The notes under the pieces were generated by a model. The model had not been told where the DNA came from. It saw only the letters and a list, made by a program, of their open reading frames with translations, and did no database searches. Shown piece by piece: positions 4,599 to 50,946 of a stretch of 64,000 nt of DNA (positions within the stretch are counted from its first letter, which is position 1; the number at the start of each line of letters is the position of its first letter). Source of the DNA: Mesorhizobium sp. M2D.F.Ca.ET.226.01.1.1 (GTDB lineage Bacteria; Pseudomonadota; Alphaproteobacteria; Rhizobiales; Rhizobiaceae); the NCBI RefSeq assembly GCF_004022705.2, contig NZ_RZOY02000001.1:688956-752955 (forward strand), written 5' to 3'. The translations under genes were made by a program, and so were the position numbers.

Positions 4599-4756
4599 CT
4601 TCCCCTTCTCCTCTTGTGGGAGAAGGTGGCCTCGCGAAGCGAGGTCGGATGAGGGGTGTTCCAGGGAACGCCAACATCTCGCTTCGCTGGAACACCCCTC
4701 AACCGGCTCGGCGCTGCGCGCCGATCCACCTTCTCCCGCAAGGGGAGAAGGGGAAG
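4599..4756. repeat. Large intergenic palindromic repeat (RIME-like), copy A
   Basis: A 158-bp imperfect palindrome with terminal arms CTTCCCCTTCTCC (4599-4611) and GGAGAAGGGGAAG (4744-4756), and internal pairs such as GGGTGTTCCA/TGGAACACCC and CTCGCGAAGCGAG. It has the architecture of the rhizobial intergenic mosaic elements. It lies between the slt stop and the hydrolase start and would form a long mRNA hairpin in a read-through transcript. Related G/C-tract palindromes occur at 50777, 53700 and 61000. Confidence 0.8.
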
Positions 4757-4763
4757 AACGCCC

Positions 4764-6797
4764 TCAGCTCCGCCCGTTCACGAGATCCCCCACGATGTCG
4801 TATTTCCCCGAAATACGCATCTTGTAGACCTCGTAATTTTCCATCACGCGCTGCACGTAACTTCTTGTTTCCGTATAGGGAATCCGCTCGATCCAGTCGA
4901 CCACCTCGTCGACCTGCTTGCCGCGCGGGTCGCCGTATTTCGCCACCCATTGGGCGGCGCGGTTGGGGCCGGCATTGTAGCCGGCGAAGGTCAGCACATA
5001 GGAGCCGCCGAAGCGGTCGAGCTGCTCGCCGAGAAAGGCCGAACCCAGCGTCGCATTGTAGCCGGCATCGCTCGTCAGCCGTGCCTGCGAGAAATTCATG
5101 CCGGCCTTCTTCGCCAACTGCTTGGCCGTACCCGGCATCAACTGCAGCAGGCCGCGCGCGCCGGCGCTGGAAACGGCGCCGACATTGAACTCGCTTTCCT
5201 GGCGGGCAATGGCGTAGGCGAGCGCCTTGCCGGATCCGGAAATATTGGCCGAATCGGGAATGACACCCAGCGGATGCGACAGCGCGCCGACATCGATGCC
5301 GCGCTGGGCGGCGATCTTGCCGACCTTGAGCGCCATGAAATGATTGCCCTGCTTTTCGGCCAGCACCGCAAGCAGCGCCAGCTCGCCGGGGCTGGTCAAT
5401 TGCCCGGCAAGGTCGCGGTAGAGCGTTTCGGCATAGCGGTCATAACCCGCCTCCTGCAGCCGCTTGATCGCGTTGACCGCCTCACGGCCGTCAAAGCTCT
5501 GGCGATCGGCCGCGCTCGGTTTCGGATAGACGATGTTGAGTGTCCTCAACCCCACGCGCTCGCCGGCGAGCTGGCCGTAGAAGGTCGTCCCATAGCTGGC
5601 CGCGCGCGTGAAATAGTCCTTGGCGCTGCCTGGACCGCCGACTTCCGCCGCGCGGCCGAGCCAGTAATAGGCGCGCGACAGCGACACCGGTCCCTGGGCG
5701 AACTCGGTGATGCGCTTGAAGTGGCTGGCGGCGGTCGCCGGGTCGTTGAGGCCGCGCAATGCATACCAGCCGGCATGGAATTCAGCTTCGGCGGCGTTCA
5801 GCGGACTTTCGGCTGCATGCATGGAGACGATCTTGTAGGCGGTCTTCATGTCCCCCTGGTCGACCAGCTCGCGCGACAGCACGCGGCGCTCGACCCACCA
5901 GGCATCGGGGTCGACCAGCGAATCGCGATCCGTCGGCGCTTTCATCACGACGGCAGCCGCGTCGGCGAATTTCTGCTGCTTGCGCAGATATTCCGCCTCG
6001 GCGAAGAAATAGCCGGCCGAACGCTGCGCCGCCGGCACCGCCTTCAAGAGCTTGGCGGCGTTCTTGTCGCCCTTGTCGGCCGCCGCCCAGGCGTCCGCCA
6101 GCGGCTGCGCGCCGGCGAGACCGGCGACGCGCAGCGCCGAGGACGGCCGGTCGGCATAGAACATCCGCTCCATGCGGTAGCGGTGGTCGACCGCCGGGAT
6201 CAGCGTGCCAAATTCCTCGATGATGGTCGCCTCGTCCTTGGATTCCAGCTTTTCCGTGCGCCAGAACGGCACCAGAACCGCCCGCGCCGCTGCCTGGTTG
6301 CCCAGCGCCACCTGCGAGCGGGCAAGGATGATCACGCCCTCCGGCGTCAGCGGCTGGCTGCGGCCGAAGGCCTGCACCACCACTTGCGGCGGCGGATTCT
6401 CGCGATAGAGCGCGCGCTCGCTGTTCTTGCGCAGCGCGATCGTGCCCGGCCATCCGGGCAGCATCTTGGCCGCATCGGCAATCTCGCCGCTCGGCACCTG
6501 GTCGCCGCCATAGAGCGCGATCGCCCAGGCGAGGATGTGCCGGTCGAGCGAAGTGGCGGGCAGCGTGTCGCGCGCATTGCGCGCGCCGGCGATGTTGTTG
6601 GCGGCAAGCGCGTCGAGCCCGCTCTTCAGTTGCGCGATGTCCGGGGCGATCGACGTTTGGCCCGGCGTCTGCGGCACGTCGGGCATGGGAATAGAAGCCG
6701 TGACGCGCGCGTCGACGCTGCCGCCGATCGCCATCGTGGGCGTCAGCGCGACGATCGCGCCCAAAAGCGCGAAGAGTTGAGGCCGCCTCGTCGGCAT
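4764..6797 (-). CDS. Soluble lytic murein transglycosylase
   Basis: A 677-residue periplasmic enzyme that cleaves peptidoglycan between MurNAc and GlcNAc, forming 1,6-anhydro ends. It starts with a signal peptide (MPTRRPQLFALLGAIVAL, about 1-25). A long alpha-helical superhelix (about 30-500) precedes the SLT catalytic domain, which carries ARQESEFN with the catalytic Glu near residue 533, SSAGARGLLQLMPGTA, and FAGYNAGPNR near residue 600. Length matches the Slt70 family. The catalytic domain is complete. It is upstream of the hydrolase on the same strand, separated by a 158-bp palindrome. Confidence 0.93.
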   Translation of the reverse strand: MPTRRPQLFALLGAIVALTPTMAIGGSVDARVTASIPMPDVPQTPGQTSIAPDIAQLKSGLDALAANNIAGARNARDTLPATSLDRHILAWAIALYGGDQVPSGEIADAAKMLPGWPGTIALRKNSERALYRENPPPQVVVQAFGRSQPLTPEGVIILARSQVALGNQAAARAVLVPFWRTEKLESKDEATIIEEFGTLIPAVDHRYRMERMFYADRPSSALRVAGLAGAQPLADAWAAADKGDKNAAKLLKAVPAAQRSAGYFFAEAEYLRKQQKFADAAAVVMKAPTDRDSLVDPDAWWVERRVLSRELVDQGDMKTAYKIVSMHAAESPLNAAEAEFHAGWYALRGLNDPATAASHFKRITEFAQGPVSLSRAYYWLGRAAEVGGPGSAKDYFTRAASYGTTFYGQLAGERVGLRTLNIVYPKPSAADRQSFDGREAVNAIKRLQEAGYDRYAETLYRDLAGQLTSPGELALLAVLAEKQGNHFMALKVGKIAAQRGIDVGALSHPLGVIPDSANISGSGKALAYAIARQESEFNVGAVSSAGARGLLQLMPGTAKQLAKKAGMNFSQARLTSDAGYNATLGSAFLGEQLDRFGGSYVLTFAGYNAGPNRAAQWVAKYGDPRGKQVDEVVDWIERIPYTETRSYVQRVMENYEVYKMRISGKYDIVGDLVNGRS

Positions 6798-6915: not shown

Positions 6916-6993
6916 GCTGGTGTCCCGATTCTGAAATTCGCATGACCTTGATATCGGGCACGGCGCGAATTTCAGAATCGCAAGGACACCAGC
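6916..6993. repeat. Large hairpin 1 of a tandem pair
   Basis: The left arm (6916-6941, GCTGGTGTCC then CGATTCTGAAATTCGC) pairs with the right arm (6965-6993), giving 26 bp interrupted only by a 3-nt bulge. The 23-nt loop contains TGATATCG. It lies in the 450-bp gap between the leftward slt gene and rightward dapA, 14 bases from a second hairpin of matching design. Confidence 0.85.
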
Positions 6994-7007
6994 CAACTGT
7001 CGAATCC

Positions 7008-7078
7008 AGTGTCGTGGTTTTCGATGTTCGCTCCGAGCCTGATATCGACGTCTGGCGAACATCGAAAACCACGACACT
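7008..7078. repeat. Large hairpin 2 of a tandem pair
   Basis: A perfect 24-bp inverted repeat, 7008-7031 (AGTGTCGTGGTTTTCGATG then TTCGC) with 7055-7078, around a 23-nt loop. As in hairpin 1, the loop contains TGATATCG and the left arm ends in TTCGC, but the rest of the stem sequence is unrelated. It has no T-run to act as a terminator. Confidence 0.85.
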
Positions 7079-7166
7079 CGCACTATGGCGATGCTTGCCG
7101 CTGAACCGTGTCGAGACTATGGTGCGCGGCTTCGCTTTCGGCTAGAAGGCGCGCAAATAAAACTTC

Positions 7167-7217
7167 GATGCATGTCGCCCAAAGATGGGTACCGGTTTTG
7201 GGACAACGACATGTATC
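7167..7217. repeat. Short palindromic repeat, ATGCATGTCG family, copy 1
   Basis: GATGCATGTCG (7167-7177) pairs with CGACATGTATC (7207-7217), enclosing a second pair CCCAAA/TTTGGG. The same layout, GCATGTCGCCCAAA...GACATGC, recurs at 16164-16213. It ends 33 bases before the dapA start and lies in its leader. Confidence 0.75.
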
Positions 7218-7249
7218 AGATCAACGAAGTTCCAAGGAGTTTGGAAGAT

Positions 7250-8131
7250 ATGCTGAGAGGCTCGCTGACCGCGCTCGTCACACCGTTCGAAAAGAGCGGG
7301 CGTTTCGACGAGAAAGCCTTTCGCGCTTTCATCGAATGGCAATTGGCCGAAGGCACGACCGGCCTTGTCCCGGTCGGCACAACAGGCGAGTCGCCGACGC
7401 TGTCGCATGACGAGCATCGCCAGGTCGTCAAGGTCTGCATCGAGGTGGCCAAGGGCCGCGTGCCGGTCGTCGCCGGCGCCGGCTCCAACAACACCGAGGA
7501 AGCGGTCGGCCTGGTGCAATATGCGGAGAATGCGGGCGCCGACGCGGCGCTGGTGGTCACGCCTTATTATAACAAGCCGACCCAGCGCGGCCTCTATGCG
7601 CATTTCGCCGCCGTTGCCCGGGCAACCAAGCTGCCGATCATCATCTACAACATCCCGCCGCGCTCGGTGATCGACATGATGCCGGAGACGATGGGCCGCC
7701 TGGCGCATGACTTCAAGAATATCGTCGGCGTCAAGGATGCGACCGGCAAGGTCGAACGTGTCTCCGAGCAGCGCATGACCTGCGGCAAGGATTTCATTCA
7801 GCTCTCCGGCGAGGATGCCTCCGCGCTCGGCTTCAACGCCCATGGCGGCGTCGGCTGCATTTCGGTGACGTCTAACGTTGCGCCGCGCCTCTGCGCCGAA
7901 TTCCAGGAAGCCACGCTCTCCGGCGACAGCGCCAAGGCGCTCGACCTGCAGGACCGGCTGTTGCCGCTGCACAAGGCGATCTTCATCGAGCCCGGCCTGT
8001 GCGGCGCCAAATACGCGCTGTCGAAGCTCGGCAAGGTCGAGAATGTGGTGCGCTCGCCGCTGGTGACGATCGAGGCCTCGACCGCCGAGAAGATCGACGC
8101 CGCGATGAAGCATGCCGGCTTGATAAACTAG
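7250..8131 (+). CDS. dapA: 4-hydroxy-tetrahydrodipicolinate synthase
   Basis: A 293-residue TIM-barrel enzyme that condenses pyruvate with aspartate semialdehyde, the first committed step to diaminopimelate and lysine. Visible signatures are [13 protein letters not shown] near residue 45, the catalytic Tyr in IYNIPPR (about 134), and the Schiff-base Lys in GVKDATG (about 163). The ATG at 7250 gives the usual family length and has AAGGAG upstream; the open frame upstream runs through the hairpins and repeat. It lies directly before smpB, an arrangement common in alphaproteobacteria, with 25 bases between them. Confidence 0.96.
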
Positions 8132-50776: not shown

Positions 50777-50946
50777 GCGAGGCCCCCCTCTCTGTCCTGC
50801 CGGACATCTCCCCCTCAAGGGGGGAGATTGGATGTCGCCTTGGCTTTCGCCAATCGCCGACGTTGACCATTGGGCGCCGTCGGCGGAGCTGCTGATCTCC
50901 CCCCTTGAGGGGGAGATGCCCGGCAGGGCAGAGAGGGGGGCCTCGC
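50777..50946. repeat. Large intergenic palindromic repeat (RIME-like), copy B
   Basis: The ends GCGAGGCCCCCCTCT (50777-50791) and AGAGGGGGGCCTCGC (50932-50946) are perfectly complementary over 15 bp, and inner arms CATCTCCCCCTCAAGGGGGGAG and CTCCCCCCTTGAGGGGGAGATG also pair. The centre contains GGCTTTCGCCAATC, shared in inverted form with copy C (53700). It ends one base before the ATG of the DUF559 gene. Confidence 0.85.

Follow-up and report, generated by a model that had tools for sequence, protein, structure and literature searches.

Two long hairpins stand one behind the other in the spacer between an slt-like gene and dapA, two divergent genes that flank it, and the locus raises the question of what such large palindromes are and what keeps their arms paired. 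In the window, by which we mean the whole stretch of 64 kb that was analysed, both hairpins lie where the initial annotation had placed them and have the geometry that it described. Hairpin 1 pairs 6916-6941 with 6965-6993 in a stem of 26 bp that carries a 3-nt bulge (CAA, 6981-6983), and hairpin 2 pairs 7008-7031 with 7055-7078 in a stem of 24 bp without a mismatch. Each encloses a 23-nt loop, 14 bases separate the paired stems, TTCGC ends each left arm and TGATATCG is present in both loops, its position shifted by one base between them on the + strand. Folded as single-stranded DNA, a 183-nt stretch reaches -58.6 kcal/mol, compared to a mean of -26.2 (sd 3.0) for 200 dinucleotide shuffles, none of which matched the native energy (z -10.65), and only two other inverted repeats in the 64 kb passed our filter (arms of at least 16, an exact seed of 12, at most 80 apart). 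No open reading frame of 60 amino acids or more lies wholly within the window copy, no promoter-like or terminator-like sites were found in the slt-dapA spacer, and a search of Rfam 15 over the window hairpins gave sub-threshold matches only, mostly to microRNA families, with none at gathering score either here or on three other hairpin loci. The features are listed below, with scores from R2, a wider covariance model of the hairpin that was built from 22 hairpins.

4764-6797, - strand: lytic transglycosylase gene, slt-like; matches below curated cut-offs
6917-7080, no strand: whole double-hairpin insertion, 164 bp, from the empty-site alignment
6917-6992, - strand: hairpin 1, an inverted copy of hairpin 2; R2 85.3 bits on the - strand
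6917-6941, no strand: hairpin 1 outer arm, the left terminal inverted repeat; foot CTGG at its start
6942-6964, - strand: hairpin 1 loop, 23 nt; the - strand reads GCCGTGCCCGATATCAAGGTCAT
6965-6992, no strand: hairpin 1 inner arm; 3-nt bulge 6981-6983, inner foot CCAG 6989-6992
6993-7005, no strand: inter-hairpin spacer, 13 nt, by the element extents
7006-7080, + strand: hairpin 2; R2 65.3 bits on the + strand
7032-7054, + strand: hairpin 2 loop, 23 nt; reads TCCGAGCCTGATATCGACGTCTG
7055-7080, no strand: hairpin 2 outer arm, the right terminal inverted repeat; foot CTCG at its end
7250-8131, + strand: dapA; TIGR00674, E 2.1e-95, above cut-off

The stem sequences had been taken to be unrelated, which is not borne out. 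When hairpin 1 is read on the - strand and hairpin 2 on the + strand, the loops share 16 of their 23 bases, compared to 2 when both are read on one strand, and 5 of 100,000 shuffles reach 16. The arms match at 17 of 25, equalled by 2 of 100,000, and the two hairpins are thus divergent copies of a single unit in inverted orientation. In the genomes G034 and G015 hairpin 2 has a 3-nt bulge at the position equivalent to the hairpin 1 bulge; in the window it is absent after 7014, and hairpin 2 is perfect here because its bulge has been lost. The insertion accordingly measures 167 bp in G034 and G015, where both bulges survive, and 164 bp in the window; the right outer foot is CTGG in those two genomes and CTCG in the window. 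When hairpin 1 and hairpin 2 are compared across three genomes, both sides have changed in 9 of 26 pairs while 98.7% of cells are still paired, and no shuffle out of 500 attains either value; the count of further pair types was as high in 499 of 500.

Whether related strains lack the insertion was a check proposed by the initial annotation, and many of them do. Our search of 61 genomes (the own genome, 36 others of the genus and 24 from other families) gave an alignment through the hairpins, besides the window, in G034 and G015 only, and in 27 of the 27 other same-genus loci that were fetched (L009-L035) the hairpin segment is uncovered by any match. Relatives without the element join 6920 to 7077-7080 via a single CTGG (query 181 to 338). 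In an alignment of eleven empty and three occupied sequences all eleven empty sites read CTGG, and G034 and G015 read CTGG-element-CTGG. The initial annotation would have taken as refuting its view a loop motif found in no other hairpin together with no conservation in related strains; instead, similar hairpins occur elsewhere among members of the genus, and at least ten genomes have the dapA copy in common.

The history of this locus was not one simple gain, because the slt tree (37 strains) interleaves ten occupied strains with empty ones in well-supported pairs, with six changes needed and all six forced; the dapA tree (36 strains) needs eight, of which three are forced. Since the dapA copies share site, orientation and sequence, repeated gain is less likely than either repeated clean loss, with the two CTGG feet slipping against each other, or exchange between strains by recombination. 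We regard the dapA copy as probably an immobile relic, old and slowly decaying. The window element is a probable solitary relic in its own genome, where neither BLAST, nor the loop pattern whose search had been suggested, nor the model-scored candidates yielded a second copy; the window was scanned whole with the hairpin models, and the rest of the genome through a limited number of scored candidates.

Beyond this genome, the hairpins belong to a family that is scattered through rhizobia and, more thinly, through other alphaproteobacteria. R1, a covariance model of the hairpin, detected it with an E-value cut-off of 0.01 in 49 of the 146 same-genus genomes searched, and R2 in 59 of 297 genomes of the family, spread over 32 of 109 genera; both counts are lower bounds because the filters were strict and 32 (R1) or 16 (R2) candidates were scored per genome. 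Two hairpins were present in 28 of 30 loci examined with R1, and 25 of the 28 scored best as left - and right +, with one tie and with L054 and L061 deviating. Each unit folds into a hairpin some 78 bp long, with arms of about 25 bp, an interior of about 23 nt and often a 3-nt bulge in the arm that faces the partner, and the usual layout is two units head to head around a spacer of about 13 nt. A search by DNA pattern led to eight named records, four from Mesorhizobium, one from Paramagnetospirillum marisnigri, one from a Micropepsaceae MAG and two from alphaproteobacterial MAGs, and the pair is present in all eight. The record of Mesorhizobium hawassense AC99b carries the same hairpin pair, and L364, from an alphaproteobacterial MAG, has the flanks of the dapA locus, as judged by reading. 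Among plasmids, a copy from G185 matched ten records at 72-79% identity (Roseibium 5, Labrenzia 4, Ochrobactrum quorumnocens 1), and the window element and a G315 copy matched none. A 34-nt end query returned the same nine Roseibium and Labrenzia records and one Bacillus match, which we take as chance. A phage search gave no match, and among viral contigs there was a single match, at a contig end.

Copies that look recently moved occur in several genomes. G185 holds eight, 91.6-100% identical over about 167 bp and with unrelated flanks; match lengths run from 165 to 178 bp, with none longer within the stretches of about 2 kb that were compared, and the feet are CTAG on the left in eight of eight and on the right in seven of eight. 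Five copies in G248 are 94-99% identical, again with unrelated flanks, and have CTAG feet at both ends in every case. The copy sets of G289, G412 and G420 are less uniform, some copies being truncated or at contig ends. Several G420 contigs end inside the element, and L272 and L273 start with 127 identical bases, consistent, as expected, with a repeat that breaks the assembly.

By a manual count, the outer arms of the G185 element agree at 20 of 24 positions and so form terminal inverted repeats. The ends of fresh copies read CTAG-TGTGG.../...CCACA-CTAG, and the element end adjoining the CTAG foot is TGTSNYGRWTYYGAARTTC. CTAG occurs 23 times in the window compared to 215 expected from base composition. 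Two solo hairpins, L338 and L346, are 97.4% identical over 77 nt in differing surroundings; because solitary hairpins also move, each hairpin can be viewed as a minimal element with its arms as terminal repeats. In L253 one element is nested in another, and by reading, the host's inner foot CTAG stands on both sides of the guest; for the outer element, relatives are too distant for an exact empty site. A sister double-hairpin family, with arms CTAGTGGATTGAATTTGACG and CTAGTGGTCTTTTTGATTCC, is found in the genus of G185 (L253 835-1165, L263 893-1060), and one of its copies hosts a nested insertion. Hairpins at L318 1450-1595 and L339 1501-1574 are chimeric, their arms seemingly from different units, perhaps through deletion or recombination between neighbours.

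Empty targets are mostly C-pyrimidine-purine-G, and fresh copies end in CTAG. At the rplY-pth locus 30 empty sites read CCGG in 27 cases, CTGG in two and neither in one; at the aroQ locus, also with 30, there are 20 CCGG, two CTGG and eight others, the nearest relative (TGGG) being among the eight. For L088 the site is CCGG in each of the three nearest relatives, and the remainder include divergent sites and other inserts. Translations were read to name rplY, pth and aroQ, and the site counts are manual. Occupied ends over the four loci are CTGG/CTGG (dapA, G034), CTAG/CTAG, CTGA/CTGG and CTCG/CTAG. The outer foot in those copies fits the inner foot of the same hairpin and not always the empty site, which suggests to us that the outer foot is corrected to the inner one after insertion. 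At two loci an empty CCGG faces an occupied CTAG/CTAG or CTCG/CTAG, and a simple duplication of 4 bp fits at dapA (CTGG) only. No usable empty site emerged when the flanking sequences of the Ochrobactrum and Roseibium copies were searched, and a search for the L072 locus, in which 24 of 61 genomes matched at a best identity of 69%, was set aside.

The L088 site takes unrelated palindromes as well, since several genomes carry another palindrome family there, with CCGGATATTGCGA...TATCCGG and variants in L181, L184 and L190-L192; similar inserts are seen in L180, L183, L187 and L189. In G015, G023, G107, G116, G155 and G162 the halves of the rplY-pth query lie about 100 bp apart, a gap wider by some 90 bp than in the other genomes.

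One of the options first put forward for this locus, a small mobile element of the MITE type, is supported by the empty sites, by near-identical copies in scattered places, by the inverted repeats at the ends and by the preference for a target tetranucleotide. The remaining question is how stems of such length stay paired; from their equal geometry, selection on structure rather than simple duplication had been suggested. Comparing stems for compensatory changes, as had been recommended, gave an answer that differs with the scale of the comparison. Between copies the compensatory changes are there: both members have changed in 16 of the 25 pairs, a number that none of 500 shuffles reaches, and 544 cells contain 85 double changes, 7 one-sided standard pairs such as G-U and 17 unpaired cells. 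The covariation score was likewise reached by no shuffle, and the pair-type count was reached by 487 of 500, in shuffles that ignore the relatedness of the copies.

Within loci, however, one-sided changes dominate. The ten dapA copies have 18 one-sided and 3 two-sided changed cells, or 14 and 3 without four cells of G108 (at 90, 92, 94 and 95) that look misregistered beside a lost bulge, and four other loci gave 29:12 (14 copies), 9:0 (8), 2:0 (4) and 4:1 (3). Of 41 changed cells at the L046 locus, 12 are paired changes, in a count that took in the presumed member L051; from the counts away from dapA L087 was dropped as short. One-sided changes in these vertically inherited copies are mostly pair-breaking. 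Rows of dispersed copies gave 12:3 (G185) and 7:1 (G248), counts that carry no weight because the consensus folds pair parts of both hairpins together. Selection on structure is thus not supported, given that the hairpins are inverted copies of one unit and that one-sided changes outnumber paired ones in vertical copies. In the dapA copies the cells off consensus amount to 2.4% in stems, 5.0% in loops, 3.1% in the spacer, 3.1% in the left flank and 5.7% in the right flank, and weak constraint is possible because the stems show about half the variation of the loops.

The hairpin 2 bulge is missing in G000, G127, G109, G150 and apparently G108, and the element of L055 has a bulge in both arms. 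In L054 and L061, both at the L046 locus, the loop is inverted in place (identity 0.91 reversed, 0.00 forward), and ten other copies of that locus have forward identities of 0.87-1.00; the two flips may be one shared event. This read-out includes one copy with a shortened loop and an ambiguous row for L051, and excludes the B-loop column, which mostly caught the A hairpin. Template switching at inverted repeats homogenises arms and inverts spacers according to the available part of PMC8604942, and the same process is treated in the portions of PMC8794818 and PMC7202029 that were accessible. Because one-sided changes dominate within loci, loops flip and bulges are lost or copied, we infer that the stems are kept up by template switching and mobility and not by selection on an RNA.

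We therefore read the window element, with a probability of roughly 0.7, as one copy of a non-autonomous, MITE-like family of mobile DNA whose arms are kept by mobility and template switching. On this view the arms would serve as terminal inverted repeats, and the whole would be a minimal transposon that a DDE-type transposase preferring CTAG-like sites cuts and joins in trans; an IS481-type enzyme is a candidate for that role. Mobility would favour intact repeats, so that the arms stay nearly perfect, and template switching between the arms during replication would erase or copy a bulge, change both arms together and allow the loop to flip. The dapA copy could disappear again cleanly if its two feet slip against each other, or recombination could replace it. 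Several observations weigh against this reading: the interleaving of occupied and empty strains in the slt tree, the 4-bp target duplication that fits dapA alone, the lower variability of dapA-copy stems than of loops, the paired changes at the L046 locus and a number of further pair types not above that of shuffles. A limited search also found no transposase partner, covering the end pattern in four copy-rich genomes and the genes of one wide-spaced layout. In those four genomes a 23-nt outer-arm pattern, with up to 2 mismatches, gave 27, 26, 17 and 11 matches, 81 in all, and the reversed control gave none. Two wide-spaced arrangements were considered as autonomous partners and rejected: the genes enclosed by hairpins 5.3 kb apart in L347 read as ordinary host genes, as do those between hairpins about 2.5 kb apart in L066, a spacing shared by L067 and L068. 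The host-gene names in L066 and L347 come from reading translations.

That the mobilising enzyme is specifically an IS481-type DDE transposase is possible but doubtful. The ends of fresh copies resemble those of that family, in which, as far as the available parts of PMC2516522 and PMC3053399 describe it, ends start with TGT and insertion is at NCTAGN. CTAG thus stands at both ends, followed by TGT as the first bases of the element, and the part of PMC2516522 at hand gives ISLxc2 ends of TGTG... with NCTAGN direct repeats. Unlike in that family, no 6-bp duplication was seen, no transposase gene is linked and the base before CTAG differs between the ends in seven of eight G185 copies; the target site of IS481 itself is loose, one copy having also used CCTAAC in the accessible part of PMC3053399. 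A different enzyme is called for if the element is REPIN-like. A Y1 (RAYT) transposase would then move it as single-stranded hairpins, using the foot tetranucleotide for cleavage or as a guide. Pairs of inverted palindromes, solo units and a foot of four bases are shared with REPINs and BIMEs, the REP pairs that go with a RAYT, and the unpaired bulge would also fit. The inner feet CCAG at dapA are complementary to the target CTGG, and a Y1 gene is present in 4 of 16 hairpin-bearing genomes, including the copy-rich G248. However, Y1_Tnp (PF01797) is absent from the other 12, among them G000, G185, G289 and G315, the inner feet mismatch the usual empty-site CCGG at the three other loci, and REPs are much shorter than these hairpins with their arms of about 25 bp and interior of 23 nt. 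With no Y1_Tnp match in the own genome and only 4 of 16 genomes positive, we rejected a RAYT as partner and consider this explanation improbable.

A structured RNA under selection, be it a small RNA or a leader of dapA or slt that regulates or is processed, would account for the strong covariation between copies, the z-score of the fold, the location in the spacer of two divergent genes and stems less variable than loops, yet we hold it to be very improbable. The element is absent from this spacer in all of the other same-genus loci fetched, and since the units face opposite ways, any one transcript contains the loop of one hairpin together with the complement of its partner's. The scarcity of one-sided standard changes such as G-U, the mostly pair-breaking changes of orthologous copies and the Rfam matches, all below gathering score, argue in the same direction. 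RNA processing in the spacer, another option first put forward, is not called for by anything observed at this locus. Chance local inverted duplications in one genome, with no family behind them, would fit the missing second copy in the own genome, but the same architecture recurs in other genera, which leaves this a negligible chance. It seems unlikely, lastly, that what truly moves is one hairpin of 78 bp, rewritten at each move via a foldback intermediate that copies one arm from the other. If that were true, new copies would start with perfect arms and mutually fitted feet, and RNA-like covariation would arise in a DNA element without RNA function, through an enzyme not yet described.

Placed beside known systems, our preferred MITE-like family is small, gene-free and dispersed, with terminal inverted repeats and a preferred short target, as MITEs are. 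It differs from them in that each terminal repeat is the arm of a complete hairpin, that two minimal units stand head to head and that no parent insertion sequence was identified. Like RIME1 and RIME2, the Sm repeats, Bru-RS and Br-REP of Hyphomicrobiales, it is an intergenic palindromic repeat of rhizobia and their relatives. RIME1 comprises two large palindromes, and the present family may be identical to it. The literature covered, which lacks most subscription papers, that on RIME1 included, contained no description in which we recognised the family. The Br-REP1 consensus, as quoted in the available part of PMC5082802, is a different sequence from the window element.

Here base-pair covariation on a large scale has its best explanation in DNA processes, which calls for caution when RNAs are sought by covariation. 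A compact family spread over several orders of one bacterial class also lends itself to the study of template switching, loop inversion and clean palindrome loss, and offers a way towards an unknown transposase. In annotation it accounts for a recurring intergenic repeat of rhizobia with long hairpins.

The window holds further repeats. Just ahead of dapA, at 7158-7230, lies a second dispersed palindromic repeat, GCATGTCGCCCAAA...GGTACCGGTTTTGGGACAACGACATG, with copies elsewhere in many same-genus genomes; at this site it is absent or doubled in some relatives, and against Rfam BASRCI27 it scores 36.9 bits, below the threshold of 59.8. Just downstream of slt, at 4646-4705, there is a 23-nt inverted repeat, 91% complementary with arms 14 nt apart, and at 50777-50946 a 52-nt inverted repeat that is 96% complementary with 66 nt between its arms.
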